A stretch of DNA of 37,813 bases from Candidatus Obscuribacter sp. (GTDB lineage Bacteria > Cyanobacteriota > Vampirovibrionia > Obscuribacterales > Obscuribacteraceae): positions 1 to 37,813 of the forward strand of contig JADYXS010000556.1 of NCBI GenBank assembly GCA_021772155.1, written 5' to 3'. The translations under genes and the position numbers were made by a program. The notes beneath the pieces are model-generated. The model was not told the DNA's origin. It did not search any database and worked only from the letters and a program-made list of their open reading frames with translations. Below are positions 397 through 28,991 of this stretch, in pieces. Positions within the stretch are counted from its first letter, which is position 1; each line of letters starts with the position of its first letter.

Positions 397-1185
397 ATGA
401 GATTCCAGAAGAAGTTAGCACATATCCTTAGCTTCGTTTGCTCCATGTTACTGAGCACAATGCCGGCTTTGTCTGCCGATAAGGGCATTGTGAAGATTCT
501 GCGCAGCAAGGGTGATAACTGCGCTATTGAACAGATATGGCTTTCGGAGTTAAAGGATTTGCAGACTTCGGAAGTTGGAGATGCCAAACAGAAAGCTGTC
601 AATCAATCCAAACTCTTTGAGGTTCTCCGGGAGTTAATCCGAGTGGAAGTAGTGTTGAATAAGCTGCCCGAGGCGGAAGCATATGCCAGACGTGCGTTGG
701 AGCTGACGCACCAACCGGGTTTTCATGTCGTTGATACGTTGTGGATGCAACATGAGCTGGCTCAACTTGAGGAAGTGCAAATGCGCGCCTGCGAAGCAGG
801 ACAAAACTATTCAGCAGAGCTGGCTTTAAGGCTGAAAACCCATGGCGAATTGAACCCGCTTAGTCTTCATAGTTGGCGTGATCTTGCGCTCAACCTGGAA
901 TCCCAAGAAAACTACTGCGGGGCCTATTTGGCATTACTGCAGGAATTGACAATCCTACAGAAGGTGGAGGGACCGAGTCATTTCGGGCTGGCAGGAATCT
1001 ATATGGATCTGGGTCGCCTTTCCTACAAGCTTAATAACCTAGAGCGATCGGTAATTCTCTACAAGAAAGCGTTATCCCTTCTATGCTGTGATCCCGTCGG
1101 CAACAAGTTGATGATTAACCAAGCGCAGCGTGAACTTCGTCGTTCTAACACCAGGCTGGCATCCGGAAACTGTCCTATGAATTGA
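397..1185 (+). CDS. Secreted TPR-repeat protein
   Basis: A 262-residue protein with an N-terminal signal peptide (MRFQKKLAHILSFVCSMLLS, cleavage probably after LSA near residue 27). The mature part is alpha-helical with TPR-like units: residues about 70-105 (LRVE..LNKLPEAEAYARRALEL) and about 205-235 (MDLGRLSYKLNNLERSVILYKKALSL) carry the usual small/aromatic spacing, with weaker helices between. TPRs are protein-interaction scaffolds, so it is probably a periplasmic adaptor; no enzyme motif is visible. No good Shine-Dalgarno precedes the ATG. Its 3' end overlaps the 3' end of the convergent VirB6-like gene by 11 bp. The specific role is unknown. Confidence 0.72.
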   Translation: MRFQKKLAHILSFVCSMLLSTMPALSADKGIVKILRSKGDNCAIEQIWLSELKDLQTSEVGDAKQKAVNQSKLFEVLRELIRVEVVLNKLPEAEAYARRALELTHQPGFHVVDTLWMQHELAQLEEVQMRACEAGQNYSAELALRLKTHGELNPLSLHSWRDLALNLESQENYCGAYLALLQELTILQKVEGPSHFGLAGIYMDLGRLSYKLNNLERSVILYKKALSLLCCDPVGNKLMINQAQRELRRSNTRLASGNCPMN

Positions 1186-4100
1186 GCCAGGAGCCTGCAC
1201 CTTGTTGAATCGCTTCCATATCCTCAGGCGTTAATCCTTGAGTTTTTCGGTATCTGTTTCTTGTGGTACCGGCAGCAATGCTCATTGTGTCCAGCCGTGA
1301 AACGCTCTCTGTTCGCGGAACATCCTCAAAGGAGGATGGGACTTCCGTTTGTTTAGGCGGTGCCGAAAGGGTCTGTCCTCTGTCCATTCCCGAAAGCGGA
1401 CAGCCTGCTCCGCGTAGTGCACTAGATATACGGCTTTGCGGTTGTTGCGCGATCGCCGGAGCTTCAGCTCTGGACGGTTCTTGTGTAGCGGGCGAGGGCT
1501 GGGTATGGGTGTCCGAAGAACTGCGGGACGTTGCAGCGTGCTGTTCAAGCACTAGAGGCTGCTGAGCGATCGAATTGGGCGATGAACGGGCCATTCCAGC
1601 ATGAGGCGTCTGCTCCTGGTATGTGGTAGCGGGAGCCGGAGCTGGAGCCGAGCTGTAGTTCGATGAGTAGTTCATCGGGATAATCGCCATTGGCGGACCA
1701 CTATGGTAATCAGCTGGGCTTGATTGGGCAGTGTAGGCGGGCGAGGAATATTGTTGGTGCGGGGCAGCTGACTGTTGTATTGCGTCGGGAGCACTTTGTT
1801 GGAGGACGTGCCCAACTGTTTGACTAATTGAAGATGCGGAATACTGGGCGAATTGAGTCGTTGATTGGGCCGCTTGCGTGACCACAGCCTGCACTTCCGA
1901 CGGTACAAAGTGACTGGCTGAAGGTTGCGCATATTGTGCAAATGATGCCGGCTGCTGCTGGACCGATGTAGAAGATCCGTAAGAAGGACTCGGAGCCTCC
2001 GGGAGTTGGATAGCTGATGCTATTGGTTGGCTGATCGAAGACTGCGCAGAGGAACCTGCGGACTGGCTAATCGATGGGGCCACAGGCTGCATTCCCGGTA
2101 CTGGAGCCTGGTTGACTGAGGCGTATTGTGCAGATGAAGTTGTCGACTGGTCTATCGATGTGACGTAAGGTTGGATCGCTGATGCTGACGCTTGTGCGTA
2201 GGACGTAGATGTTCCTGCTGACTGATCAACTGAAGTGCCGTAAGATTGCATTCCCGGTATTGGCGCCTGGTTGACTGAGGCGTATTGTGCAGATGAAGCT
2301 GACGACTGGTCTGCCGATGTCACGTACGGTTGGATCGCCGATGCTGACGCTTGTGCGTAGGACGTAGATGTACCTGCCGACTGATCAACTGAAGTGCCGT
2401 AAGATTGCATTCCCGGTATTGGTGCCTGGTTGGCTGAGGCGTATTGTGCAGATGAAGCTGACGACTGATCTGCCGATGTCACAGTGGATTGGATTGCTGA
2501 AGCTGCTGCCTGGTTAACTGACTGGAGTGCATAGGAGCCAGATGATGACGCGGATTGATCAATCGATCCACCGACAGACTGGATGGCTGATGATGCAGAC
2601 TGACTGATTGAAGACGACGTGGCCTGCGCAACTGAACCGGGGTCAATCGAGCCACCAACAGACTGGATGGCTGATGCTGCAGACTGACTGATTGATGAAG
2701 ACGCATCTCGCGCGAATGAAACTGGGTCGGCCGATCCACCCAGTGACTGGATGGCTGACGCTACAGGCTGACTGATTGATGAAGACGCGGACTGTGCAAA
2801 TGAATTAGTGTCAATCGGTCCGCCCAGAGATTGGATCGCTGATGCTACGGGCTGACTGATTGACGAAGACGCGGACTGTGCAAATGAATTAGTGTCAATC
2901 GGTCCGCCCAGAGATTGGATCGCTGATGCTACGGGCTGGCCAAATGATGAAGGTGCGGATTGTGAGACTGAAACTGCCGACTGGTCAATTGATGCACCAA
3001 AAGGTTGAATGGCAGATGCAATTGCCTGGCTAATCGGAGGGGCATTTTGAGCGATCGACGCAGCCGACTGGTCGACTGATGCACCAACAGATTGAAGGGC
3101 TGAAACCACCGGTCCATTAATGGACGAGGCAGTGTCTTGGGCAATCGACGCGGCCTGGTCGATCATGCTGAGAGGAGGTTGACCCGCCGCATTTATCGCT
3201 TGTTCGGCGATACTCACAGGCGCCTGAATCAACGATCCTGCTAATTGATTTATAGCGCCTCCGGCTGAAATTGAACCGATATTTTGTTCGACAGATAGCG
3301 GCGATCCTGCCGTCGTTGCCGTGTTCAACAGTCCGGCTCCAATCATCGGCGGACCGCCGGCTGCTTCCAGTGCGGCACCCAATTGACTCAGCGGTGTGCC
3401 TTGACCAGTCGCATCAGAAAGAGCGGTCAGCGGTGAGCCTAGCCCTGATGTCGTGGCGCCTAGAGGTTGTGACATGCCTGGTAATCCGGCGATGCTTTCC
3501 AGTGTTGACAAAGCTCCATTTGGAAGAGCACTGAGTCCCTGACCGCTACGTTCTGATTGTTCGGTCAAGGCGGCTTGCGATGATTGCAGTGCTAAATTAG
3601 TAACCGAGCCAAGTCCCTCTTTTGAATTTTGAAGAGAGCTTCCGAGCATACCTGGTATCACATTTGGCTGATTCAGCCCCTGCGCAGCGGCAAATAGCGC
3701 AACCCCAAAATCGACATTCGAGAGCGGTGGCGCTGTGGTTGCCAGTTGCCCTAGCTCGGAGCCCATTCGACTAACTAGAGGTTCAGCAAAAGATGTTCCC
3801 CCTGCCACCGATGATGGTGGCTTAGAAACGTCGGTAAAATCAAGGGGTACCGCGCTGTTAAGCTGCGCTACTTGCATGGTTGCCATGTCTGATGATGCAC
3901 CGCCAATTCCCGCGCTGCGATCCATTCCAGCAAGTGCAATTCCGCCTCCGCTTTCGCCGCCACCAACGGCTCCGGCTGATCCGCTACCACCACTTAGCAC
4001 CGTGCCTGAATCGATTCCACTCGGGCCGCCGCCAGATTGCGCTCCTGGAGCACTTGCAGGCGCACCTTGGCTTCCGCCGCCGGATTTGCCAGCAGCCGCC

Positions 4101-5719
4101 TTGCTCCCTCCGCCCTGAGCGGAGTTTGCCTTCATACTGCCGCTCAACGCTGCACCAACTGCATTGGCTTGAGCACCGGCTGCGGCAACGGCTCCAGAGA
4201 AATCGAATGCGCACTTAACAGACACAGTAGCAAGTGTATTGAGCGCGGTCATCATCACCGTGCCTGTCTCATCGTATCCACGGAAGCAAGCCATAAGTAG
4301 AATTGTGGTATTCCACATCAAGCTCCAGAAGCACAAGGTAACGCAACCTTCTATCCAGCTTGGAAGCGCATCGCGAAGCACCTTCATCGGCCATACCCAA
4401 AGGGCAGCAACAATTGGCCCCATGAACCAAAGGTAGTAGAGATAAACGGTCTGGAATGCGCAGAGTCCGTTCCACGCGCATGTCAGCGCAGCGTTCATGC
4501 CGTTAAAGGCCAATCGAGCGGCGACCACAGAAATCGGTAGAGCCTCGTCAACGCGATCCGCAGGTGCGATGTACAGTGGAACGCATGGATCCTCTATCTT
4601 TGTTGAAAACAGTTGCCCTTCGACTTTTGCAAACACAGTCTTGGACTGAGGAAGCAATTGACCCATTTTAGCGGTCGGCACGTCGTAGGTACCGCGGTTC
4701 TCGCTTTCCTGGCGCACTGGAAATGCACGCACTTCGGCGCAGATGGCCGATTTGTACATGTCATCGTTGAAGATCGCCTTGTACTCGTTTTGAATCGTTA
4801 AAGTCAGGCTATTCGAAACGTCGATACCATAATTCAGCACCAGGCACGTTGCTGGAATAAGAAAGATCGCGATGATTGACCGGAGGATGCCTTCGAACGG
4901 TTCCGTCTGCTCAACAACCGGATTTCCGGCAGCGACGATCGCTTTAACCTGGGCAAGCATTGCTCCTGGTAAAAGCAATAACAGTGCAATTGGGATAAAG
5001 AGCCTATCGCGAACGTTGATCCATTGGGTTGCAGTAGTAAAGTTTGTGAGGTAATTAGAACAAAAATCAATAGCGCTATTTGCCTGGGTCCGAGTTAGCT
5101 CTGCTAGAGCATTTCCCATCTGTGTATTTTGTGCTTGCTGAGTGGCTTTGCTGACTCCGATCCAACGCTCGGGGTCGCTTACCTTGCCGAGCAATATGTC
5201 GTTGGCGATGGAAGTGTTGATGTAATCCGCGGAGTCTGTCAGATGATAACCTGTTAGCGGTGGACAGTGAGCGTACATCTCCTGTTCCTGAGCGCGACTT
5301 GCAACTGGGAACATGACTGTCGCAAGCGGTAGCATCGGAACTTCGGAATAGAGCATGCCATTTAGGTTGGCGCCCATGATCATTCCGGGCATCGCTGATC
5401 CCTTTTCGTCGCGGATGTCAGTGCCGCCAAACCCGTAACTTGGCTGCGTCGAGGCTCTGGCGCCGGCGCCTTCTGCGCTCATCAAATAGCTGTATCGGCG
5501 TTCTTGCATCCCTTCGACGCTGTCATTTTTATTTGCGCCACCGGCACCACCGCCAGCGCCACCCTTACCTTTACCGGCACCACCGGCACCAATTCCGGTA
5601 CCGACACCGGCACCACCACCCGAGGAACCGCCTGGGAGCGACGGCGCGGAAAATGTGGCTGGTGCCACCAGAAAAGAAACACCAAGAACAACTAGTAAGA
5701 GCAACTGTTTTGGTAACAT
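1175..5719 (-). CDS. Giant VirB6/TrbL-like polytopic membrane protein with Ser/Ala/Gln repeat tail
   Basis: The open frame extends to 5893, but I start it at ATG 5719 (1514 residues) because a signal peptide begins there (MLPKQLLLLVVLGVSFLVAP) and the predicted promoter lies at 5757-5810, inside the longer frame. Order: signal peptide 1-25; Gly-rich linker 29-62; domain shared with the upstream paralog (LTDSADYIN at 160-168); membrane segments about 239-258, 280-300, 425-443 and 458-478; tail from about 520 to the end. The block MGPIVAALWVWP followed by SWIEG (GP 434-435, W455) resembles the Gly-Pro plus Trp core of VirB6/TrbL channel proteins of type IV secretion systems. The tail is Ser/Ala/Gln-rich with 53- and 28-residue tandem repeats and is probably disordered. 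Paralog of the gene at 5937-8078. No other core secretion-system gene is certain nearby, so function is inferred. Confidence 0.72.
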   Translation of the reverse strand: MLPKQLLLLVVLGVSFLVAPATFSAPSLPGGSSGGGAGVGTGIGAGGAGKGKGGAGGGAGGANKNDSVEGMQERRYSYLMSAEGAGARASTQPSYGFGGTDIRDEKGSAMPGMIMGANLNGMLYSEVPMLPLATVMFPVASRAQEQEMYAHCPPLTGYHLTDSADYINTSIANDILLGKVSDPERWIGVSKATQQAQNTQMGNALAELTRTQANSAIDFCSNYLTNFTTATQWINVRDRLFIPIALLLLLPGAMLAQVKAIVAAGNPVVEQTEPFEGILRSIIAIFLIPATCLVLNYGIDVSNSLTLTIQNEYKAIFNDDMYKSAICAEVRAFPVRQESENRGTYDVPTAKMGQLLPQSKTVFAKVEGQLFSTKIEDPCVPLYIAPADRVDEALPISVVAARLAFNGMNAALTCAWNGLCAFQTVYLYYLWFMGPIVAALWVWPMKVLRDALPSWIEGCVTLCFWSLMWNTTILLMACFRGYDETGTVMMTALNTLATVSVKCAFDFSGAVAAAGAQANAVGAALSGSMKANSAQGGGSKAAAGKSGGGSQGAPASAPGAQSGGGPSGIDSGTVLSGGSGSAGAVGGGESGGGIALAGMDRSAGIGGASSDMATMQVAQLNSAVPLDFTDVSKPPSSVAGGTSFAEPLVSRMGSELGQLATTAPPLSNVDFGVALFAAAQGLNQPNVIPGMLGSSLQNSKEGLGSVTNLALQSSQAALTEQSERSGQGLSALPNGALSTLESIAGLPGMSQPLGATTSGLGSPLTALSDATGQGTPLSQLGAALEAAGGPPMIGAGLLNTATTAGSPLSVEQNIGSISAGGAINQLAGSLIQAPVSIAEQAINAAGQPPLSMIDQAASIAQDTASSINGPVVSALQSVGASVDQSAASIAQNAPPISQAIASAIQPFGASIDQSAVSVSQSAPSSFGQPVASAIQSLGGPIDTNSFAQSASSSISQPVASAIQSLGGPIDTNSFAQSASSSISQPVASAIQSLGGSADPVSFARDASSSISQSAASAIQSVGGSIDPGSVAQATSSSISQSASSAIQSVGGSIDQSASSSGSYALQSVNQAAASAIQSTVTSADQSSASSAQYASANQAPIPGMQSYGTSVDQSAGTSTSYAQASASAIQPYVTSADQSSASSAQYASVNQAPIPGMQSYGTSVDQSAGTSTSYAQASASAIQPYVTSIDQSTTSSAQYASVNQAPVPGMQPVAPSISQSAGSSAQSSISQPIASAIQLPEAPSPSYGSSTSVQQQPASFAQYAQPSASHFVPSEVQAVVTQAAQSTTQFAQYSASSISQTVGHVLQQSAPDAIQQSAAPHQQYSSPAYTAQSSPADYHSGPPMAIIPMNYSSNYSSAPAPAPATTYQEQTPHAGMARSSPNSIAQQPLVLEQHAATSRSSSDTHTQPSPATQEPSRAEAPAIAQQPQSRISSALRGAGCPLSGMDRGQTLSAPPKQTEVPSSFEDVPRTESVSRLDTMSIAAGTTRNRYRKTQGLTPEDMEAIQQGAGSWLNS
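2111..2480 (-). repeat. 159-bp in-frame tandem repeat (53 aa unit)
   Basis: The sequence GTTGACTGAGGCGTATTGTG recurs at 2111 and 2270, and with one change (GTTGGCTGAGG) at 2429, a constant 159-bp period. There are two full near-identical units and part of a third, all within the tail of the VirB6-like protein. Each unit encodes 53 residues rich in Ser, Ala, Gln and Tyr (contains NQAPIPGMQSYGTSVDQSAG). Near-identity at DNA level suggests recent duplication and a potential for copy-number change. Confidence 0.9.
2560..2945 (-). repeat. 84-bp in-frame tandem repeats (28 aa unit)
   Basis: GTGTCAATCGGTCCGCCCAG occurs at 2808 and again at 2892, exactly 84 bp apart, with the intervening sequence nearly identical. 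More diverged units extend towards 2560. Each encodes 28 residues of the type SSSISQPVASAIQSLGGPID. The period is a multiple of three, so gain or loss of units keeps the reading frame. Confidence 0.88.
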
Positions 5720-5756
5720 GCGGTACACCAATTGGTAAAATTTGCGGTTGTCAGTA

Positions 5757-5810
5757 ATTTTAATGGCCCAGTGTGTGGGAAACGTGAGAGCTTTGTGAAG
5801 GAGCTGTGAA
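5757..5810 (-). promoter_or_regulatory. PhoB-like 11-bp direct-repeat promoter of the giant VirB6-like gene
   Basis: On the plus strand GTGTG, GTGAG, GTGAA and GTGAA start at 5773, 5784, 5795 and 5806, exactly 11 bp apart. Read on the minus strand this is TTCACA-N5, TTCACA-N5, CTCACG-N5, CACACA. Ten nt after the last unit is TAAAAT (5762-5757), a plausible -10. Head-to-tail 11-bp repeats ending 10 bp before a -10 are typical of boxes bound by PhoB/OmpR-family activators. Predicted transcription begins near 5750, leaving a leader of about 30 nt to the ATG at 5719. Confidence 0.72.
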
Positions 5811-5936
5811 TTTAGCAGCCGGACCCGTGGAGCTGGCGCCATGCAAGCTTCCTGGTGACCTAGTGGAAAAGCGGATGGGAAGCACGCGCCCACTTCGGAA
5901 GGATCCCAGCGCTAACTCAACATTGATCGACCGCTA

Positions 5937-8078
5937 CTACTTTCCTGATAACGGCGGAGGTTGGCTAGATGGACGAGTCGTGGGGCCCGGTTTGGTTCCA
6001 GCTTGAGATGTGGACGGCGTTGCGCCTTGTCCTTTGTCTTCGCGAGGCGCACCATGGTTCTCATAGTTCCCTGTTTGAGGCGGTGCCTTTTGACCGTTCG
6101 ATGCTCCATCATTATTGCTGCCAGTATTGCTCGTTTGCTGTGGAGCTGCCTGAGTACTGGCCATCGACGAGCCTTTTGGCCGCTCGCCATCGGAGCCGAT
6201 GGTGGCATAGCCAGGACGGCCACCACCCTTGACCATGTTCTGGGCTTTCTGCTGCGACTCTTTCTCGGCCTTGTCCATCACTTGTTGCACGAATCGGCCT
6301 GGACGGAAGTCGAAAGGCTGAAAAGGAACGGCGCCCATGAGCATCGTGAAGGCCGAAAAGACGATCATTTCAAATGGGCTGTTGATGTGGTATTGACCGA
6401 TGTCATTTAACCAGAAGATACGCACATTCATGCACAGAAGGATCATGCACCACCAAAAGCGCCACAGCGACAGTGTAACTACGCCGTCAACCCAGCTTGC
6501 AAAGGCATTCTTGAAAGGAGCAGTTTGTGGCCACGCATAGAAGGCTGCTGCAATTGGTCCAAGCAACATCAGGTAGCACATCATCATTGTCTGAAACTGC
6601 AGCAAGATCGAAACTATTGAGCAGTCCAGCATATTGATGGTGTTGAAGGCTAACTGCATCTGCGTGCTCATTCGCGATTGTACTTCTGGCTGAGCATCAG
6701 CTCCGGGGACCGCCGCCGCTCTACCGCCGAATTGACTGGTTCCTGTACTGGACCCGGTACTTGGTTGTCCGGTTAGATTTCCGAGACTAGGGGCACCACT
6801 GGGGGCCGCCCCGTCTGCTCCACCAATGCCGAGGAACGATATGAACATTTTTGGCAGATTTCCGAAAAAGGACAGAATGCTTGACCAGAAACTGCCGGGC
6901 TCCACGACCACTTTGTCTTCTAGGGCAGGGTTGCGCCCGACCAGGTTTTCCCACTGTGGTGTCAATTGATTGGCAGAGTTTATGTCCGGCACGTCGTACA
7001 GTTGTGCATCTGTATAGGTCATGATCGCGACTGGATCTATTCCATAAGAGCAGATAACTTGGGTCATTGAGTTGCCGACATCGATTGAGTAACTGATTAT
7101 CAGCTGTGTTGCAGGAATAAGGAAAATTGCGATCATCGCGCGCAAGAGCCCCGGAATTGCTGATCCATAGTTGGTCTTTAGCCTGAAACCTTGACCGACC
7201 ATACTGTGGACTTGCGTAAGTACTGCGCCTGGTAGGACCAGCAACAAAGCCATCGGCAGAAAGAGCCTCTTATAGGCTTCTTGAACCATCCACGCTACTT
7301 CTTCGACGGTGCGTGTAGCGGATTTTATGTTTGGCTTCACAGCACCCGCTTCGTTGGCGACATTGAATAAGTTTCCGCGAATTTCGAGCACGGCTCCCGC
7401 GAACGCGACTTCAGCGGCTTGAGCTGCGGAGTTAGACATGTCTTGCTGCTGCGCCTGAGCCATAACTTCTGCCGTTTTTATCCAGCGGCTCGGACTTGTG
7501 AGCTGATCTACCAACTTCGCATTGGATGTGACCTTGTTGATGTAGTCGGCCGAATCAGTGAGCGGAATTCCGTACGTCATTGGTGCTTTGGTAAACGCTG
7601 CTTCGGCCGCAGCCTGACTGCCGAAACACTTGCCGACATCCAAACTGGTAACCATAGGTGGCATAGTATATTTAAAAAGATACGCGTATTCGTACTGCGA
7701 GGGCGGTCCGAAGTGAGACAGCAACTGCATTGGATATTTTAGTTCAGTAAGACCTGCAAGTGTGCTAGTTGGTGGATTACCAGCGTATGTCCCTGCTTGA
7801 GCTTCCACAGCCTGTTGGGGCGGTGCCTTCATCTCCACGCTACCGCGAACACCCGAGGAAGTCTTTCCGGAATGATGGTCCGGCGACAGCACCGTGCTTT
7901 CACTGGTGTTCCTTGAGCGTGGCCCCGGGTGATTTGCATCATCGAATAATTTCTGGTTTGGATAGGCCAATCCATGATGCTTTTGCAAATCTGCAACTGA
8001 GTTGGATGTACCTGCAAAGGCAGGTGTCACGCATAGCACGCAGTAAGCCGAAAAGGCAGTGAGAAGAAACTTCCACAT
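5937..8078 (-). CDS. VirB6/TrbL-like polytopic membrane protein
   Basis: A 713-residue protein starting with a signal peptide (MWKFLLTAFSAYCVLCVTPA, cleavage near AFAG). An N-terminal domain to about 260 includes LTDSADYIN (173-181), shared with the downstream paralog. Membrane segments lie at about 271-292, 311-333, 487-515, 532-556 and 570-585. The MLLGPIAAAFYAWP block (GP 507-508) followed by ASWVDG (W529) matches the core of VirB6/TrbL proteins, inner-membrane channel parts of type IV secretion or conjugation machines. The last 110 residues are Gln/Pro/Ser-rich. The two paralogs share the FIPIALLLLLPGA / FLPMALLLVLPGA and IAIFLIPAT segments, so one arose by duplication. The ribosome-binding site is weak. 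Its promoter has four 11-bp repeats and a hairpin leader. The family assignment rests on topology and short motifs, not a search. Confidence 0.72.
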   Translation of the reverse strand: MWKFLLTAFSAYCVLCVTPAFAGTSNSVADLQKHHGLAYPNQKLFDDANHPGPRSRNTSESTVLSPDHHSGKTSSGVRGSVEMKAPPQQAVEAQAGTYAGNPPTSTLAGLTELKYPMQLLSHFGPPSQYEYAYLFKYTMPPMVTSLDVGKCFGSQAAAEAAFTKAPMTYGIPLTDSADYINKVTSNAKLVDQLTSPSRWIKTAEVMAQAQQQDMSNSAAQAAEVAFAGAVLEIRGNLFNVANEAGAVKPNIKSATRTVEEVAWMVQEAYKRLFLPMALLLVLPGAVLTQVHSMVGQGFRLKTNYGSAIPGLLRAMIAIFLIPATQLIISYSIDVGNSMTQVICSYGIDPVAIMTYTDAQLYDVPDINSANQLTPQWENLVGRNPALEDKVVVEPGSFWSSILSFFGNLPKMFISFLGIGGADGAAPSGAPSLGNLTGQPSTGSSTGTSQFGGRAAAVPGADAQPEVQSRMSTQMQLAFNTINMLDCSIVSILLQFQTMMMCYLMLLGPIAAAFYAWPQTAPFKNAFASWVDGVVTLSLWRFWWCMILLCMNVRIFWLNDIGQYHINSPFEMIVFSAFTMLMGAVPFQPFDFRPGRFVQQVMDKAEKESQQKAQNMVKGGGRPGYATIGSDGERPKGSSMASTQAAPQQTSNTGSNNDGASNGQKAPPQTGNYENHGAPREDKGQGATPSTSQAGTKPGPTTRPSSQPPPLSGK

Positions 8079-8106
8079 GATGTTTTGGTTCTCGGGGAAT
8101 AGTAAA

Positions 8107-8162
8107 GAACGGCGGATTCCCTGATCATTCAGGCTGGACAGGACAAAGGATTACCGCCGTTC
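8107..8162 (-). promoter_or_regulatory. 5'-leader stem-loop of the VirB6-like gene (copy A)
   Basis: On the minus strand GAACGGCGG (8162-8154) pairs perfectly with CCGCCGTTC (8115-8107); the enclosed segment contains CCAGCCTGAA. The predicted start site is about 8163, so the hairpin would form the very 5' end of the transcript. A homologous hairpin with the same arms and the same loop decamer is at 8770-8822. It may stabilise the mRNA or control translation. Confidence 0.68.
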
Positions 8163-8169
8163 TGCAAGT

Positions 8170-8223
8170 ATTATGGTGATGCTTTGTGAGACTACCGTGA
8201 GCAATTTGTGAGTGAATAGTGAG
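8170..8223 (-). promoter_or_regulatory. PhoB-like direct-repeat promoter of the 713-aa VirB6-like gene
   Basis: GTGAG occurs on the plus strand at 8186, 8197, 8208 and 8219, four exact copies with an 11-bp period. On the minus strand they read CTCAC-N6 four times. Ten nt downstream is CATAAT (8175-8170), a -10 with one mismatch. Spacing is identical to the promoter at 5757-5810. This looks like an activator-dependent promoter with the box replacing the -35 element. Confidence 0.8.
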
Positions 8224-8334
8224 CCGCTTTACCAATCACCTTCCTTCGTGACAGCGCTGCTTTCAGATCGCTGGACAATTTTTGCGATTCTTCTTTTCGT
8301 AGAGGTTAACTGGGATAGCTTTCGAATCCCTGAT

Positions 8335-8622
8335 TCAATTGTCGTTGTTAACTAATGAAAGATGATGCAGAGTGTCCGGCATGCCGCCTGTGTGATTGGG
8401 ATTTGCGCTAGCGAGTTCATGTTTTGAATCGACAAATAGCTCTAGCGTGCCATAAACAGCTTCAACAGCCACGTCATGCACCTTCGAAGCGGCACTCCTG
8501 ATGTAAGCCAATACTGAGTAATCACGTGACTTAGCTATATCGTCAGACATGGCGGCGGTAGTACCATCCAGCTCGGGTCGAGTATCATCGGCCACTTCGC
8601 AATCGGTGATTTTGCTGCCCAT
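8335..8622 (-). CDS. Small protein of unknown function (95 aa)
   Basis: A 95-residue acidic, soluble protein beginning MGSKITDCEVADDTRPELDG. AAGGAGAGG a few nt before the ATG supports translation. No signal peptide, membrane segment or familiar motif is visible; the middle (SRDYSVLAYIRSAASKVHDVAVEAVYG) could form an amphipathic helix. It lies downstream of the duplicated repeat promoter at 8830-8861, suggesting shared control with the VirB6-like genes. A possible terminator hairpin (GGGAT-N9-ATCCC) follows near 8311-8329, without a clear T-run. I do not recognise the family. Confidence 0.55.
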   Translation of the reverse strand: MGSKITDCEVADDTRPELDGTTAAMSDDIAKSRDYSVLAYIRSAASKVHDVAVEAVYGTLELFVDSKHELASANPNHTGGMPDTLHHLSLVNNDN

Positions 8623-8743
8623 AAACCTCTCCTTGAAACGGATCGCTCCAGTAGCTGCTCCACACGATTCGTTGAACGCCGCCTCTGCAGCCAGTCGCCG
8701 ACCTGCCTGCTAAACCGTCAGGACTCACACAGTGATTCACCAT
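8585..8743 (-). CDS. Possible 52-aa leader ORF after the duplicated promoter
   Basis: The ATG at 8743 occupies the same place, relative to the duplicated promoter and leader, as the start codon of the 713-aa gene at 8078 (CATGAT context conserved in both). Downstream the reading frame is unrelated: 52 codons beginning MVNHCVSPDGLAG, ending at TGA inside the first codons of the 95-aa gene (38-nt overlap, different frame). It may be a translated leader, or an empty start left when the promoter was duplicated. No family is recognisable. Confidence 0.25.
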   Translation of the reverse strand: MVNHCVSPDGLAGRSATGCRGGVQRIVWSSYWSDPFQGEVYGQQNHRLRSGR

Positions 8744-8769
8744 GATTTTTGGTTTCGCGGGGTAGTAAT

Positions 8770-8822
8770 GAACGGCGGATTCCTTGTCTTCAGGCTGGGA
8801 AAAACAAAGGATCCCGCCGTTC
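8770..8822 (-). promoter_or_regulatory. 5'-leader stem-loop (copy B)
   Basis: Second copy of the GAACGGCGG / CCGCCGTTC hairpin (8822-8814 with 8778-8770 on the minus strand). The stem continues inward: ATCCTTTGT opposite ACAAGGAAT pairs with one mismatch and one wobble, after a one-base bulge. The loop shares CCAGCCTGAA with copy A. Predicted transcription starts near 8823, so again the hairpin is at the 5' end. Confidence 0.65.
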
Positions 8823-8829
8823 TTCAGGC

Positions 8830-8861
8830 ATTATGTTGAGGTTCTGTGAGCGAATGGTGAG
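8830..8861 (-). promoter_or_regulatory. Duplicated direct-repeat promoter, two units (copy B)
   Basis: GTGAG at 8846 and 8857 on the plus strand (11 bp apart), then 10 nt, then CATAAT at 8835-8830 on the minus strand. The region 8741-8861 aligns with 8076-8223 through start-codon context, hairpin, -10 and repeats, so it is a duplicate that kept two of the four units. It reads towards the 52-aa ORF and the 95-aa gene. Confidence 0.68.
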
Positions 8862-8871
8862 GCGCCACCAA

Positions 8872-9073: not shown

Positions 9074-10945
9074 ATGGCTTCTGACAGTAACATGGATGCT
9101 GAACACCGCCGGGATGGAGATCCTGGGATCATTGACGCTTTTGCTTCTGGGTTGAAGGAGGCCGTGGCGCAACCGTTCAATGGTGCAAGCGAACTGTTGG
9201 GTGGACCTAAGTCGCATCAGGAGCCGCTCAATCTTGAGGGCGCTTCAAAGTTTTCGCATGACTTTGGCACGATGTTGGGAAGTGCCGCCATGTTTGTCTC
9301 AGTTACCAAATTCACGCGTCGGTTGTTTCCCGGCGCCGGAAAACTTGCCCCCATATCGGCAGGTGCCGGTCTTGGTTTTCTCGCTCCGACCGAGGACGGT
9401 AATCTGGCGGAGCGCTTCCAGCATGCAGCAATCGGCGCTGGCACTGCTACGTTCCTGGAATTGGGACCCAGCGCGTTGACGCGCGTGGGAATCCGCGGCA
9501 GTTTGGTGCAAAACACAATTTCCGGTGGAGCTGCAGGTGGCTTCCATACCCAAGCCGATTCAATCTCTCGTCACGGTGAGCTGGCAAGTCTGTCAGACAC
9601 CATGTTAGGTGCAGGAACCTGGGCAGGAACAGGTTTGACCTTTACGGCCGCTGGACGGATCTTCAGTCGGCGCGGTGAATCAGCTGTAGTTGCCGGGAAG
9701 GGGCAAGATGCCCCTCCTTCTCCTAGTGGGTCCACTAAGAGCAACGGTCTGATCGAGCTGCCGGGTTTGGAACTTGGTGTACCGATAAAGCATGGCGGCA
9801 TGCTCAGCGTTGCGCCAGGCTCTGAGATAGCAAAAATGTATGCAGGCGCTCAAGGCAGCATTGGCCGTGCCGAAGTCCTTGCTGTCTCAGCTACCGGCGC
9901 AACGGAAGGCCGTTTGGGAACAGTGTTTAGCGTTTCTAAAGATGGACGAATGTTGACGGCTAATCACGTGGTGGAAAAAGCGCTAGATGTAACTATTTTT
10001 GATCATGCGCAAAAGCCACATGGCGCGCGCGTTGTCGCAAGCAATCCACAGCTAGATATTGCGGTGCTGCAATTGAAAGATCCAGCATCGTTCGCTGCGT
10101 TTGAACCATTGCCGCTTGCAACAGGTGGTGCAGGTCTTCGGGCAAATCCGGCAAATGTAATGACTCATACAGCATTTGGACACCCCAATGGTTGGCGAGA
10201 ATTACATGCAACGCGGGGTACGCCGATAAACAATTTCCGGCATTCTGTTACCACGCGGTTTTTGATGCCGGGGCAGGAAGGACTTTCCGGCGCGCCGATG
10301 ATTGCCGATGGTGCCGTTCAATCCATTCTGATACAAGGCGCGCGCACCAATGGTGCAGAAGTGATCGGGACCCCGATACACCATGGAATAAAACTTCTCG
10401 AAGGTTTACCGAAAGAAGCCACCGTATCTGGTGCTTTATCCGCCAGCCCGAAACTTGACTTGCAATTGATTCGTAGTTTCAAAATTGGCGATCAATCTGC
10501 AGCCGCAGCTAATTTAGACAAGTTGTTTGGACCAAACTTCACCACCACTGAACTGCCTCCTTCGTTCTTTCACGCACGTGTTAAGACAGTCCCTCTAAAA
10601 GGAGCGGGCGAAGCAAGCGATGCTCTGACGATGAAAATGCAATACAACCCGGCGGAGCAACAATTGAGTGTGCAACCGATAGCATTTAATGGAAAGCCAA
10701 TCGGCGAAGTGACCTGGCCGAATAGCACTGTGCGGATTGATTCAGCTAAAATCGTCGTCAAGTTTGATGCTACCGGCAAACCGGAGGCGATGGTGAGCCA
10801 CAACGACCCCGGTGGCGTTCTTCAACAGGGCTTCAACTACCGCGGTGAAAACAACTATTTAGCAGACCTCAAGCCCGCCAAACCTCGGGATTGGATGGAC
10901 CTGTTCCCGCCAGCGCTGCGATTTAGACGGACGGCGAAAAACTGA
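9074..10945 (+). CDS. HtrA/Deg-like trypsin-fold serine protease with hydrophobic N-terminal region
   Basis: A 623-residue protein. Residues 1-50 are polar; about 60-215 form a Gly/Ala-rich, partly hydrophobic region (TMLGSAAMFVSVTKF, SAGAGLGFLAP, ISGGAAGGF) that might insert in membranes. About 285-430 is a trypsin-like domain: GTVFSVSKDGRMLTANHVV with H298, NPQLDIAVLQL with D328, and GLSGAP with S405. All three catalytic residues are present, so the enzyme is probably active. The C-terminal 190 residues are unassigned and no PDZ domain is evident. There is no classical signal peptide, so localisation is unclear. The ribosome-binding site before ATG 9074 is weak (GGGTGG). Convergent with the response-regulator gene at 11073. 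Confidence 0.8.
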   Translation: MASDSNMDAEHRRDGDPGIIDAFASGLKEAVAQPFNGASELLGGPKSHQEPLNLEGASKFSHDFGTMLGSAAMFVSVTKFTRRLFPGAGKLAPISAGAGLGFLAPTEDGNLAERFQHAAIGAGTATFLELGPSALTRVGIRGSLVQNTISGGAAGGFHTQADSISRHGELASLSDTMLGAGTWAGTGLTFTAAGRIFSRRGESAVVAGKGQDAPPSPSGSTKSNGLIELPGLELGVPIKHGGMLSVAPGSEIAKMYAGAQGSIGRAEVLAVSATGATEGRLGTVFSVSKDGRMLTANHVVEKALDVTIFDHAQKPHGARVVASNPQLDIAVLQLKDPASFAAFEPLPLATGGAGLRANPANVMTHTAFGHPNGWRELHATRGTPINNFRHSVTTRFLMPGQEGLSGAPMIADGAVQSILIQGARTNGAEVIGTPIHHGIKLLEGLPKEATVSGALSASPKLDLQLIRSFKIGDQSAAAANLDKLFGPNFTTTELPPSFFHARVKTVPLKGAGEASDALTMKMQYNPAEQQLSVQPIAFNGKPIGEVTWPNSTVRIDSAKIVVKFDATGKPEAMVSHNDPGGVLQQGFNYRGENNYLADLKPAKPRDWMDLFPPALRFRRTAKN

Positions 10946-11072: not shown

Positions 11073-11483
11073 CTAGCCTGAAGACGAGCGGATCAACGTG
11101 CTCTCGAGTTGAAGCCAATGTTGAACCGTCTCTGCGAACGATTGAATCGAGAATGGCTTGGCAATGTAATCGTCCATGCCAGCGTCTAGACAAATTTCAC
11201 GGTCACCGTTCAATGCGCAGGCAGTCACAGCGATTATCGGTACTCGTTTGTTGTAATTGCCTTCCACGCGACGAAGTTTTTTGGTACACACCAGCCCATC
11301 GTCGCCTTCACCCAATTTCCAGTCCATAAGAACTAAATCGAAATGATTGGTTTCAAATGCACTTACAGCCGCGGCACAGTTAGCAGCGACTTTTAGATCA
11401 AGACCGTTTCTGGCGCAAAGCAGTCTGATCAGGAACTGCTGAGTGGGGTCATCTTCGACAAGCAGGATCAATGGTTTGTGCAT
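11073..11483 (-). CDS. Single-domain CheY-like response regulator receiver
   Basis: 136 residues forming one receiver domain and nothing else. Key residues are in place: acidic pair D11/D12 (LLVEDD), phosphoacceptor D54 (LVLMDW), T87 (IIAVTA) and K109 (DYIAKPF). No output domain follows, so it would act by protein contact or in a phosphorelay; it is not a candidate binder of the 11-bp repeats. The spacing and AKPF-type C-terminus resemble receivers that partner with hybrid histidine kinases; no kinase of that type is in the window. Divergent from the TetR gene, with two palindromes in the shared 93-bp region, so it may be co-regulated. Confidence 0.92.
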   Translation of the reverse strand: MHKPLILLVEDDPTQQFLIRLLCARNGLDLKVAANCAAAVSAFETNHFDLVLMDWKLGEGDDGLVCTKKLRRVEGNYNKRVPIIAVTACALNGDREICLDAGMDDYIAKPFSIQSFAETVQHWLQLESTLIRSSSG

Positions 11484-15653: not shown

Positions 15654-18600
15654 TCAGCGACGGGCACCGGCCTCTTTTTGCAGTACTCGTTGCATGATCA
15701 CATCTGCACCGCGTCTGTACAAATACTTCAGGTTCCCGCTGTGCGGCGCTCCGTATACTTTGGCGGCTGGGTCATAAATTAGGGTCTGTCCGTCTGAAAA
15801 GGTAACTTCTGTCCACGCATGATCCAGAGAGTTGGCACCCATCTCGCCGCTTGCACCGCGAACCAGATTGACTTTTAGTCCTACGCGATCGCCGATGTAT
15901 TTCATCAAAAGAGCGCGCTCGATACAAACTCCCTCTCCAGTCGCGACGAGTTCGCCCATCGGGATTTCCTGCCCAGCCAGAGCCGCCCGTCTTTCCATAA
16001 CCCTATCGAGCAGAGACTTTGTGGACAACTCTCCACCGCTGAATAGTTCGTTGACCATGGTGGTCAATGCCGCAGCCCTTTCTCTTTCCGGTAATTCCGA
16101 AAGGTGTTTCTTGGCCATCTTAGTTAATTCAAAAAGTAGCAGGTCCGTGTTGGCATCGAGTTTCACGATGTATCGCTGTGGTTTGCTAACAATATGTCCC
16201 TCAGCATCAAACGTCTGATATTTTCCACCATCCACAAATCCATCGGCCATCGGGCGGTTTAACTGCTGGAGGTCCGTGAATTGCATTGATTGTCTTGCAT
16301 GGTCGGGCAGTTCGGAAACTTTAAGCTCGAAGTGATCACCAACCTGTTCAATGGGCAGATTCTGCTCTTTGCACGCCTGTATGAAGGCTGCAGTCCCTTC
16401 CTGACTGGTCGGTTTAAACACTAATGTTTTGCTGTTTTGGTCAAATTCAGTTTGCATGCGGCAAGCCTTTGCCATTCCGTAAGCCATCGCAAATCCGCCC
16501 GTGAGGTGGAAAAACATGGCTGTTGCTTGTGGTGCTTTCCCATCGAAGGCATATCGATTGAAATCGCGCGCCAGCAGTTCAGTTCCACGTCCGCCGACTT
16601 CGAAGGCGCCCATCACAGCAAGGTCTTTGCTCATTGCAAGAAATGAAGCTTCATGCTGTCCAACTGCTTCAACCCCAGCCAGTGCGTTTGCCATGCTCAT
16701 GGTGCCATAAAGAATGGCTGTATTCAAAGCCCATTCCTGTGCGTATGGCATGACGATGTCTGTGTAGAATGACTCCAGTCTTTCGCCGGTGCTGCGATTT
16801 GGAAACTGTCTGGCAAATTCAGCCAGCGGTGGGTTGTCCAATCGTCTGCCTACGCCTGTGTATCCGAATCTTTCGTTGATTGTATGTGTGGTCAGTCTTA
16901 CTGTTTCGCGAGCTGCCATTGACCCAGCTGTTCCGAGTGCGGCTACAGCCAGAGGAGTTGCGGCTCCGCAGCTAGCTAGAGTAACTGCTACTGCTGCAAA
17001 CGCAATCAAACCAGCGATCATTTCCGGACCATGCTCAAGCAGCCACTTACTTACACTTTCAGTTCCATAGCCTGCTCCTCGAACATAATTTAGAACCTGA
17101 CGAATCTGCCTCCCTTCTGCTGTTTCCGGAGATAGAAAAGCTAGGACTTTCTTGAGACTTTCTACCTTGTCGTGGATTACCTTATTGGCAGCAAGGTCGT
17201 CGATCTCCCCATTGCGATGATCACCATCTACCAGTGCCTCCATCTTATCGATCGCGCGCTTCAAATCTTGAGGCGAGACTCCGGGATCGTCCAGCAGTTT
17301 CTTAAGCGAGTCAGCCTGGGCTCTTGCCTGTTTGAGCAGATCTTCTGAAAAATTGCCGCTTTCATTACCTGCCCGGACGATGGTGCTAAGCTCGCTCAAA
17401 ATTGGTTGTACCTTTGATGCCATGTTGACCGCAGCCATGATTTCCGGGGCAGAATTTATCGACATGAGCGCGCGATTTCTGAGCGGTTCAATGACGGCCG
17501 AACCTTTGCACTTATATTCAGGCAGTTTTTGCAAAAGGCTCACACCTTGATCCAGGCTTTGCGGTGTTCCCAGCTCAAGCATGGGGCTGATAGGCATCCA
17601 ATTTTTTCTTTGGGTTAAAGCCTCATCTACGCTGAGAACCAGGTGGTTGTCTTTCTTGTATGCGAAGCGAATGCCATGCTCGGACCAGATATTCAGGAGC
17701 ATCTCACTTGCGCGATCATTCTGGCTGCCATCTCTGAAAGAGGTATATTCGGCCATATCACGTGCAAGATCGAGTTTCTCTTGTTGCTCTTGGAGTTTTG
17801 CATACGTCTGCATTGTGCTCAACAACGTTCTTTGCCGTTCGGACTCTGCTTCCACATATGCGGACTGCACAGCTTCCGCTTTGTCATTAGGGTGCCAAGT
17901 CGGACCTCTATGTACAGGCACTTGAATCGGCTGTTGCGTCGTCGGGTAACTCCCGGATTGCTCAGCGAAGTATTTCATCCAGGTTAAAGTGGAGGGCACC
18001 GCTTGCGCTGAGTCCTTAACCAGGGACTCCTGTGCCAATCGAATTATTTCTAACTGCTCGTCAATCTTCTTTTTTGTGTCTATTGATTGAGCTGCGATAT
18101 CGTCGACTTTGTCGGCAAGTTTTTCGACCAATTGCTCTGAGAGCGCATCAAGGTCTTTTTGAATGGATCCGTTTTTGTCTGTGAAAATTGCAGCATAGTA
18201 GTCGGCATTTGGCGATGGATCCCCAGCTAACCAGCTTGCCAGGTCTTCCTTCGATCTGGTGGCGGAATCTGACTTTCCTTGAGCAGCGCTGGTACCAGCA
18301 GGCAAAATTTTCCGCTCTTCGAATTCTTTAACCAGATCATCAGGGAGCATTGAAAGCAGGCTGTGAATCCTGTCAATGGCTCTCAGTGTGCGGTCTGGTG
18401 CATCCAGTTTGGCGACTCGGGCGTCAAGTTTGGCTGTTTTGTCTTCATCCAAATTCCAGCTTTTTGTCAGTTCTGTTGCACTGACTGGTTTCTCTGAAAC
18501 CGGTCTGGGGTCTGGAATGATTGGACCGGAGTTTATGAAAGACTGCTGTTGCTTATGGTACGTTGCTTCCATCTCAGTACGTTCAGTGAAGACAAGGTCT

Positions 18601-19199
18601 TCTGCTGCTCTTGTCCGCAACTTCAACTGGATAGACATTGGAAGCTGTTCGTAGGCCTGGGAAATTGATGGATCGTCGGCAAGCAAGCCTTCGGCCCATG
18701 TCTTCTGGCGTTCACTGAGCAGTTTTTGGGATAAATCTAGATATTCGGCGAAATCTGGCTTTAATCTGTCTACCGTGAGTTGAAATGGATGGACTGAGGG
18801 ACCTAAAAAGTCGCCTTTGCGCCTGGAAGATAGGCCCGGAAAAGAAAGATATTGGTCTTGAATGCCATCGATTCCCAAACCGGGTGACGCGATTTTGAAA
18901 GGAGGCTCTGCTTTCAAGTAGCCTAAGTCGAAACTAGTTCGCGCTGGCGTTGAGTCCCGGGTTTTGTCTCGGAGAGAAAGCCATCCGTCCTGAACCTTGA
19001 TGTCTTGCGCTGGTCCGAATTGAACTGGTCTGACTGTTTCTCCGCCCATCCCTACAATTGTGAATCGGGGAAGATTTGAATCTGCAGGGCTCTGATAAGT
19101 GCCGGTCTGTGGAATTGGTCTTTCAACAGAAAGATCAATAAGAATAGGTTGCCTATCGTTGCCGGTTTCATCATTACTTCCCCGTACTGTGTTGTCCAT
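15654..19199 (-). CDS. Very large protein with a transglutaminase-like/EDR1-type cysteine peptidase C-terminus
   Basis: 1181 residues from ATG 19199; GAGGG lies 7 nt upstream, better placed than for the TTG two codons earlier. Residues 1-750 are charged and helical with coiled-coil stretches (for example KVDDIAAQSIDTKKKIDEQL) and no known domain. A hydrophobic hairpin-like region around 745-785 (MIAGLIAFAAVAVTLASCGA) may cross a membrane. The C-terminal domain has GEGVCIERALLMKYIGDRVG (C1092), LDHAWTEVTF (H1127) and LIYDPAA (D1143), the Cys-His-Asp triad of transglutaminase-like folds; the sequence around it resembles the EDR1/CTR1-type peptidase domain. Partner in a tail-to-tail pair with the papain-like gene. 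No signal peptide; function unknown. Confidence 0.65.
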   Translation of the reverse strand: MDNTVRGSNDETGNDRQPILIDLSVERPIPQTGTYQSPADSNLPRFTIVGMGGETVRPVQFGPAQDIKVQDGWLSLRDKTRDSTPARTSFDLGYLKAEPPFKIASPGLGIDGIQDQYLSFPGLSSRRKGDFLGPSVHPFQLTVDRLKPDFAEYLDLSQKLLSERQKTWAEGLLADDPSISQAYEQLPMSIQLKLRTRAAEDLVFTERTEMEATYHKQQQSFINSGPIIPDPRPVSEKPVSATELTKSWNLDEDKTAKLDARVAKLDAPDRTLRAIDRIHSLLSMLPDDLVKEFEERKILPAGTSAAQGKSDSATRSKEDLASWLAGDPSPNADYYAAIFTDKNGSIQKDLDALSEQLVEKLADKVDDIAAQSIDTKKKIDEQLEIIRLAQESLVKDSAQAVPSTLTWMKYFAEQSGSYPTTQQPIQVPVHRGPTWHPNDKAEAVQSAYVEAESERQRTLLSTMQTYAKLQEQQEKLDLARDMAEYTSFRDGSQNDRASEMLLNIWSEHGIRFAYKKDNHLVLSVDEALTQRKNWMPISPMLELGTPQSLDQGVSLLQKLPEYKCKGSAVIEPLRNRALMSINSAPEIMAAVNMASKVQPILSELSTIVRAGNESGNFSEDLLKQARAQADSLKKLLDDPGVSPQDLKRAIDKMEALVDGDHRNGEIDDLAANKVIHDKVESLKKVLAFLSPETAEGRQIRQVLNYVRGAGYGTESVSKWLLEHGPEMIAGLIAFAAVAVTLASCGAATPLAVAALGTAGSMAARETVRLTTHTINERFGYTGVGRRLDNPPLAEFARQFPNRSTGERLESFYTDIVMPYAQEWALNTAILYGTMSMANALAGVEAVGQHEASFLAMSKDLAVMGAFEVGGRGTELLARDFNRYAFDGKAPQATAMFFHLTGGFAMAYGMAKACRMQTEFDQNSKTLVFKPTSQEGTAAFIQACKEQNLPIEQVGDHFELKVSELPDHARQSMQFTDLQQLNRPMADGFVDGGKYQTFDAEGHIVSKPQRYIVKLDANTDLLLFELTKMAKKHLSELPERERAAALTTMVNELFSGGELSTKSLLDRVMERRAALAGQEIPMGELVATGEGVCIERALLMKYIGDRVGLKVNLVRGASGEMGANSLDHAWTEVTFSDGQTLIYDPAAKVYGAPHSGNLKYLYRRGADVIMQRVLQKEAGARR

Positions 19200-19356
19200 T
19201 GCCAATCCCTCACCTTGCCCTGATGCCTACAGTAGATTGCCGGCATTAGTAATTTGTGGAAGGACACGCGACCCACCGGGCAGCGCTAAGCAAGCCGAAA
19301 GAAATGCGTAGTTCCCCCCTTGTGCCGGAGACCCGGTTTGCGTACTTTAGTGGGTT

Positions 19357-27209: not shown

Positions 27210-28445
27210 CTATTTGAGAATTATCTCGCTGCTGCGAGCAATACGGCGGTACTGAGGCTTATGTTTGGCCGCTGCCACTGGACGTTTGGCTGGTTCGAAA
27301 ACGCGAGCTTCACTATGCCTGATGACAGCCGTTCCGGGTTCCATAGCTAACGGGATTGGTGCAGCAGCTATAGCATTAGTTGCGGGACCGCAGTTGTTGC
27401 ACAGTGCAATCGCTGTCGGTGCGGACATTTGAAGCATCATCGCTTCACCGCATGGTACAGTGACGCCAGCTCTTCTTGTCATCACCATCTTTTGGAACGG
27501 TACATCCAAACCTGCGCCGATGGAGTTTCCTCTCCAGCCACCACAAATGGTGCCTTTGCTAGCCGCAAGAAGGCCTGCGCTGGCAAGGCGGACAGCCGGA
27601 GCTTCAACTTTGATCGGATTTGTATTCCATGCAACCCAAGTTCCAACACCACCGAATATGTGTCCGACGATTGGAATTACGCTGCCATCTGGAGTACGCA
27701 GCTCGTTAAAGCGGATGCTGAATGCTCCTTTCCGTGTGTAGGCGTTCGAAGCTTCGACCAGATGGCCGATTGCGGTTGTGCCTGCCGGTAGATATGCTTC
27801 CCATTGGGTTGCACTTTGGCTGGTGCGCAGCGGAATATCACTGGAAAGGGTGGCTTGGACGACATCGCCCGTTACCGAAGTTTCGCTATCGATCGGGGTC
27901 ACCAGTTTTATCGGTAAGAAAGTACCGGCCGGGACGTAGGCAACCATTTCTGAACGTGGAGCAGCAGCCACTTGTGCGTAGTTCCCGGTCAACATTGACA
28001 GGTACTTGTCCATAGCCGAGGCATCAGCCAAACAAAACTTGATGCTATCAGCCCACTTTTGGGCAAGCTGCAAGGCGGTCATACGGTTTCGGGCGGCGCT
28101 GTTGCCGTCTGCTGTAGCAATGTGGAAGCCATCTAGAGTTACTACTGGGTTTCGGTTCACAACCAATACTTGCACCGCTGACGGTGCTCTATTTTTCGCA
28201 TAAACAACTGCATAGTCGAGATTCTTTTGAATTATCGCTGCGCGTTCTTGTGCGGTTAGTCCGGCTGCATTCGCATCTACCTCGAACAATTTGCCGCATG
28301 CGCCAACGATTGAGGCTGTCTCAGCCAGGTATGTCGAACCTGTAACTTGTGACATAGCCGCTGGACCGACCACAATGCTGAGCGCGGTAAACACGCCGAG
28401 CAATACCCCTTTCTTGACTGAGAACTTACCTATCTTCATTTTCAT
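27210..28445 (-). CDS. Secreted paralog with cyanobacterial-type and VirB10-like beta domains
   Basis: 411 residues from ATG 28445, preceded by GAGG 8 nt upstream (GTG 28448 is an alternative). Signal peptide GVLLGVFTALSIVVGPAAMS. Residues about 100-160 contain VVTLDGFHIATADGNSAARN and LQLAQKWADSIKFCL; residues about 175-290 contain YVPAGTFLPIKLVTPIDSET and LRTPDGSVIPIVG, each aligning with the paralog at 26145-27134. The C-terminus is longer and ends with a basic tail. Both genes are on the minus strand with 75 bp between them, and are probably one unit or a tandem duplication. Role unknown; an envelope structural or secretion-related part is plausible. Confidence 0.68.
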   Translation of the reverse strand: MKMKIGKFSVKKGVLLGVFTALSIVVGPAAMSQVTGSTYLAETASIVGACGKLFEVDANAAGLTAQERAAIIQKNLDYAVVYAKNRAPSAVQVLVVNRNPVVTLDGFHIATADGNSAARNRMTALQLAQKWADSIKFCLADASAMDKYLSMLTGNYAQVAAAPRSEMVAYVPAGTFLPIKLVTPIDSETSVTGDVVQATLSSDIPLRTSQSATQWEAYLPAGTTAIGHLVEASNAYTRKGAFSIRFNELRTPDGSVIPIVGHIFGGVGTWVAWNTNPIKVEAPAVRLASAGLLAASKGTICGGWRGNSIGAGLDVPFQKMVMTRRAGVTVPCGEAMMLQMSAPTAIALCNNCGPATNAIAAAPIPLAMEPGTAVIRHSEARVFEPAKRPVAAAKHKPQYRRIARSSEIILK

Positions 28446-28991
28446 CACCTATACCTCTGCAATTCAAAGCTTTAGCCAAAGCAAACGCCAAGGCGCTTTC
28501 CATTCAAAACATCGGGCGCACAAACGTTGCAACTATGGAAGTCTATGCAACCAACGCTGCGTGTTGTTAGATCCGAATTTGTTTGTTTTACGCAAGGCGC
28601 TTTTATCGCCTAGGGTCGGGCCTCAAATCGTTAGCTAATCTCCGACCTGACCGTCCTTACTGTTGAGTATACCGAAAGCCGTATTGGTTAACAGCAGGGA
28701 ATCCCTATATTCGTACTACGGAAACTTGCAGCTGTGGTGTTTTTAAACCCATGTCTACAATCACGTAGAGCTAGCGATGTGGCGCAATGCGCACGTAGTT
28801 GAATTTGTACAAACTAGCTACGTGCATAGCGCGTGCGAATATGGATCGCACGAGAATGCGCAGTGTGAGCAGACCTAACGCAATGTTTGTTGCGGTATAG
28901 AAGGTCTGCAACGAACTTGAGGGCACCGCGTTCGGTGCTTATCCTGCCCGTTGCTTGCGCATATTGATGATTGGCATGAACCAATTGCATG
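28446..28991. other. 545-bp intergenic region with a large inverted repeat
   Basis: No gene is supported here. GCGCAATGCGCACGTAG (28782-28798) and CTACGTGCATAGCGC (28818-28832) form an imperfect stem of about 15 bp with a 19-nt spacer. GCACCG-CGTT-CGGTGC (28923-28938) is a perfect hairpin 54 nt after the metallothionein stop and may be its terminator. AGGCG-N7-CGCCT occurs near 28591-28607. The promoter of the secreted paralog gene must be in the left part, but I could not place it. Confidence 0.5.

Follow-up and report, generated by a model that had tools for sequence, protein, structure and literature searches.

The window analysed here is the whole of a 37,813-nt contig (C302) from the 7.0-Mb draft genome (730 contigs) of a Candidatus Obscuribacter sp., whose family, the Candidatus Obscuribacterales/Melainabacteria, is characterized by large genomes. 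On the minus strand of this window, three promoters carry arrays of short direct repeats upstream of the -10 hexamer; two of them precede large genes for VirB6-like proteins and the third lies upstream of a small open reading frame (ORF). All three are built of (T/C)TCAC units with an 11-bp period, the last of which lies exactly 10 nt before the -10. The arrays and hexamers, as read from the sequence, and the genes that follow them are given below, promoter by promoter.

5773..5810, minus strand: array 1, four 11-bp units that read TTCAC/TTCAC/CTCAC/CACAC from 5′ to 3′ on this strand, before the 1514-aa VirB6-like gene
5757..5762, minus strand: -10 hexamer TAAAAT, 10 nt past array 1
1175..5719, minus strand: gene for a 1514-aa secreted/membrane VirB6-like protein, promoter 1; its 713-aa paralogue matches it with E ~1e-31
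8186..8223, minus strand: array 2, four CTCAC units with an 11-bp period
8170..8175, minus strand: -10 hexamer CATAAT, 10 nt past array 2
5937..8078, minus strand: gene for a 713-aa VirB6-like membrane protein, promoter 2
8846..8861, minus strand: array 3, two CTCAC units that duplicate the end of promoter 2
8830..8835, minus strand: -10 hexamer CATAAT, 10 nt past array 3
8335..8622, minus strand: small hydrophilic ORF of 95 aa, approximately 210 nt downstream of promoter 3, with no family match

On re-reading the sequence, the positions, the 11-bp period and the 10-nt spacing to the -10 given in the original prediction proved exact. Its description of the units as GTGAG-type is literal for arrays 2 and 3, in which the plus-strand units at 8186/8197/8208/8219 and 8846/8857 are all GTGAG, but loose for array 1, where the correctly placed units at 5773/5784/5795/5806 read GTGTG/GTGAG/GTGAA/GTGAA and only one of the four is GTGAG. 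Likewise, the three promoters said to share the box are all present, but promoters 2 and 3 derive from one duplication of a promoter plus its 5′ leader (8076-8232 and 8741-8862; 80% identity over 110 bp, at 8741-8850 in the second copy); thus, the window has only two independent arrays. The likely start of the 1514-aa gene is the ATG at 5719, which lies downstream of the -10 and is followed by a signal peptide; the ORF delimited mechanically (1175-5893) begins at a GTG at 5893, upstream of array 1. The 95-aa ORF is the probable target of promoter 3.

Each duplicated leader has the potential for a stable hairpin, GAACGGCGG...CCGCCGTTC, in the stretch that separates the -10 from the gene, and no other instance of this hairpin was found in the window's own genome beyond the duplicate copy.

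8106..8163, minus strand: leader hairpin in the 5′ leader of the 713-aa gene, z -2.2
8770..8822, minus strand: leader hairpin, copy of the former, z -3.9

The two large genes are paralogues of one family, and their label as VirB6-like stems from gene context: in Candidatus Obscuribacter phosphatis (locus L241), their homologues adjoin a gene for a TraC/VirB4-type ATPase (PF11130, E 4.7e-11), and the window itself contains a TrbI-like gene (27210-28448). No Pfam, NCBIfam or PDB match names them as VirB6 or TrbL by profile or solved structure, and profile comparison with the PDB returned chance-level matches only. The secretion link drawn in the original prediction is therefore retained in part, in that a paralogue family stands beside a TraC/VirB4-type ATPase gene, but the name VirB6 comes from none of these profiles. 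At L241 (1-15194), the genes for two VirB6-like proteins, a giant one of 1804 aa and one of 854 aa, are accompanied by those for the TraC/VirB4-type ATPase, a PrgI-like protein (weak match) and a zinc-ribbon DUF2225 protein; this cluster is type IV secretion-like, although no library names it as such.

Within the window, six pairs of TCAC are spaced at period 11, compared with zero to three pairs at the other periods between 6 and 24, except for period 22 (twice the former), which has five. In 300 dinucleotide shuffles of the window, the mean was 1.1 pairs at period 11, and a run of three or more units never appeared. In the window's own genome, the three-unit pattern CTCACN6CTCACN6CTCAC, with up to two mismatches, gave 14 matches compared with 2 for the reversed pattern used as a control, while TCACN7TCACN10TAN3T gave 24 matches compared with 2; an ORF starts 30-240 nt downstream in 18 of these 24. 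The arrays of the window are missing from these 24 matches, since the last unit of promoter 1 is CACAC and the -10 of promoters 2 and 3 is CATAAT; the matches are thus independent support for the register.

The pattern TCACN7TCACN7TCACN10TAN3T was also searched with zero mismatches in 97 genomes, 47 of which belong to other families. This search gave approximately 50 exact matches, spread over 22 genomes of the window's family; the 47 genomes from outside it had none, and the reversed pattern gave no match. A fourth TCAC, which the pattern does not ask for, is located exactly 11 bp upstream in 38 of 48 distinct instances, and no other offset occurs more than five times. In a further search, made in 50 family genomes and requiring three units but no -10, the TA dinucleotide after the third unit peaks only at 10 nt (27 instances) and 21 nt (45 instances), over a background of approximately six; the 21-nt peak corresponds to 10 nt plus one further, often degenerate, 11-bp unit. 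The array geometry is real and family-wide, and its fixed phase to the -10 rules out chance. The array recurs in other promoters of related genomes.

The same data bear on the idea that the arrays of the window are repressor sites, or a repeated promoter segment with no regulatory role. Two of the three promoters are indeed a duplication, and sites that overlap a -35 can repress as well as activate; however, the enrichment at a fixed phase in the genome and in the family excludes chance, and the -35 position is taken up by the array itself, an argument in favour of activation. We consider this idea very improbable.

Among the arrays of the 50 family genomes, the base that precedes TCAC tends to agree within an array (TT in 38 cases, GG in 36 and CC in 10), so the arrays fall into the subtypes TTCAC, GTCAC and CTCAC. 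This coherence of letters within arrays suggests the action of several paralogous regulators.

PHO boxes have been described as 11-nt units (PMC4415409), and those of Escherichia coli PhoB as tandem repeats that precede a TAN3T/A -10 by 10 bp (PMC1906773). Since the arrays have the same frame as these published boxes, they point to OmpR/PhoB-type regulators placed over the -35 position, and it is quite likely that they are sites for response regulators of this type in class-II activator promoters. Each array would consist of head-to-tail DNA sites, with one tandem dimer per two units and two dimers per four units. The promoter-proximal unit, which ends 10 nt before the -10, would fill the -35 position, and the phosphorylated regulator would stand in for the -35 element and recruit sigma-70 RNA polymerase, as E. 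coli PhoB does. Different regulator paralogues would probably read the TTCAC(G), GTCAC and CTCAC variants. In the window, one or more regulators would co-activate the two VirB6-like genes and the small ORF, and the same regulators would co-activate approximately 20 genes elsewhere in the genome, many of them for hydrophilic proteins without a signal peptide. We infer both the binding by these regulators and the activation, as opposed to repression, of the genes.

Three known systems share part of this organization. In E. coli PhoB promoters, head-to-tail 11-bp units, two or four in number, likewise end 10 nt before a TAnnnT -10, and they replace the -35, as is proposed for the arrays; unlike them, the unit described here is centred on TCAC (TTCAC(G), GTCAC, CTCAC), has no pst/phoU link and goes with many paralogous regulators. 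The PhoP box of Streptomyces coelicolor, made of GTTCACC direct repeats, has near-identical core letters and an 11-nt unit, but it belongs to another phylum and to other targets, and the array genes in our family show no sign of phosphate control. The cyanobacterial SphR (PhoB) box, CTTAACCT x3, comes from a sister lineage and is also tandemly repeated, 8 bp plus 3 bp giving an 11-bp unit; however, its core is TTAACC instead of TCAC, and SphR controls pst genes, which the arrays do not.

SARP-type activators also act on direct repeats spaced 11 bp apart close to the -10, with 8 nt between the repeats and the -10. Such proteins, or other activators outside the two-component systems with an OmpR-like DNA-binding domain, could therefore be proposed to bind the arrays, given the similar repeat geometry and the fact that the pairing of arrays with regulators is at the level of candidates. 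Nevertheless, the arrays lie 10 nt from the -10, like PhoB boxes, and not 8 nt as for SARPs, and the array neighbourhoods are enriched for full response regulators (receiver plus winged helix), often with kinases. On the evidence of the spacing and of the array neighbourhoods, binding by SARP-type or similar activators is, in our view, decidedly improbable.

The enrichment beside OmpR-type regulators, for its part, is consistent with the OmpR/PhoB-type assignment. OmpR-type regulator genes adjoin arrays in many genera, and in the window's own genome they do so on contigs C718, C330 and C79; a membrane histidine kinase is often present with the array-adjacent regulators. In loci that had been fetched only for holding a regulator, seven array sites were seen, compared with 0.7 expected from the genome-wide density. 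Furthermore, the TTCACG arrays track the regulator type found at locus L130, which is present in 11 of 30 genomes and in 7 of the 8 genomes with such arrays (hypergeometric p ~0.001). Family genomes encode from 4 to at least 59 OmpR-type regulators, and the window's own genome, with approximately 55 full-length ones, represents a very large expansion. Together with the published 11-nt unit, the 10-bp spacing and the occurrence across the family, this adjacency bears out the OmpR-family (PhoB-like) box geometry of the original prediction and makes OmpR-type regulators, as a class, well-supported candidates for the arrays.

Several findings weigh against this interpretation. Of the approximately 55 candidate regulators of the window's own genome, none has a unique link with the CTCAC arrays found in the window. 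The array-adjacent regulators, which we considered as a possible single clade, are scattered on the regulator tree; since adjacency to an array is no property of a clade, several regulators, or chance linkage for some of them, must be allowed for. The receiver gene nearest to the arrays of the window, a CheY-like gene at 11073-11483, was rejected as a candidate, as it encodes a receiver only, with no DNA-binding domain. Finally, no array was found near 29 loci with VirB6-like homologues of relatives, nor in 809 kb of further neighbourhoods, except for L118/L273, so the targets in the window are not conserved ones. At L118 (2841-10855; genome G033), the gene for a hydrophilic protein of approximately 1030 aa is driven by an array and is divergent from two VirB6-like genes; the array points to the former.

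The original prediction had also proposed, from box geometry, a response to phosphate: the arrays would serve as Pho boxes for a PhoB/PhoP-type regulator, with phosphate limitation as the trigger for the genes. The geometry is indeed the same as that of PhoB boxes (PMC1906773, PMC4415409), TTCAC resembles the GTTCACC box of S. coelicolor, Ca. Obscuribacter phosphatis was named for its polyphosphate accumulation (PMC4040986), PhoB is among the best NCBIfam matches of the regulators, and a kinase-regulator-PhoU locus is present in the window's own genome. However, those PhoB matches score 207.6 and 203.3 bits, far below the equivalog cut-off of 296.2, and the array-adjacent regulators lie on a different branch of the tree from the phoU-linked regulator. 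A lack of the motif at known Pho genes, by which the original prediction could be refuted on its own terms, was observed for pstS and phoU: no array was present at any of 16 family pstS loci (3.3-3.9 kb each), the only TCAC pair there being internal to a coding region upstream, nor at the kinase-regulator-phoU locus (contig C125) of the window's own genome, an incomplete assembly in which PstS was not found. No recognisable Pho gene occurs among the approximately 70 array-driven genes examined; phoA, phoD, ppk and pit did not turn up among these array matches, no scan having been aimed at their promoters. Control by phosphate is therefore unlikely.

With OmpR/PhoB-type regulators that act on other genes as the preferred interpretation, the targets of the arrays differ by subtype. 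The TTCAC-type arrays precede genes for beta-helix exoproteins, Tad-type pilin-like proteins, DUF2252 proteins, TPR proteins and sensor systems. Tad/Flp-type pilin-like genes, one of them with a VWA domain, are found beside TTCACG arrays in several genera (seven loci). In the window's own genome and in other genera, the GTCAC and CTCAC arrays mostly precede genes for hydrophilic proteins with no hydrophobic N-terminus; 26 of 33 proteins encoded after such arrays have no hydrophobic segment at all, compared with 117 of 247 background ORFs (p 0.0005). Enzyme domains (polysaccharide lyase, methyltransferase) occur in a few of the encoded proteins. Array targets in the window's own genome also include the two VirB6-like genes described above and the regulator gene on C718 itself.

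Near residues 25-31 of hydrophilic proteins encoded next to GTCAC arrays in relatives (seven loci), we observed a short N-terminal motif (LFDEV, LYEDT, LTEEV, IFEDA, MMNEV), present in 10 of 12 array proteins and in 25 of 634 background N-termini, the motif having been drawn up on the same proteins. This motif may be a targeting signal. Other genes of the window encode a trypsin-like domain protein in which no signal peptide is evident (9074-10945) and a protein of 1183 aa that has a peptidase-like domain of the EDR1 type (15654-19205).

A comparable arrangement is found in Legionella, in which PmrA and CpxR control the Icm/Dot genes and effector genes (PMC6989116). As proposed here, winged-helix OmpR-type regulators act there on the genes of a secretion machine and on scattered cargo genes (PMC6989116); in contrast, the organism is unrelated, and the secretion and cargo roles in our case are putative. 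As a joint claim, which we advance tentatively and regard as possible rather than probable, OmpR-type regulators may have diversified their boxes (TTCAC, GTCAC, CTCAC) in one rigid promoter frame, splitting the Obscuribacterales genome into separate surface and secretion regulons, of which the GTCAC/CTCAC regulons would link hydrophilic cargo with a common N-terminal targeting motif to a type IV secretion-like machine that is as yet undescribed.

The promoter kind is mechanistically ordinary, as probable tandem-repeat class-II promoters of OmpR-type regulators; what is new are the boxes, their subtypes, the rigid frame across the whole family and the targets. PhoB-like geometry alone does not amount to phosphate control, and to assume so would be an annotation trap in polyphosphate accumulators such as Ca. 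Obscuribacter phosphatis. In the present host, an uncultured non-photosynthetic relative of the cyanobacteria, the arrays are proposed to switch on genes for a secretion machine and for secreted-type proteins. For a group that is uncultured and has dozens of two-component systems but no genetics, they offer access to regulation through sequence: with so rigid a frame, targets can be recognised in the genome sequence alone, and the variants of the box can be matched with the paralogues of the regulators.

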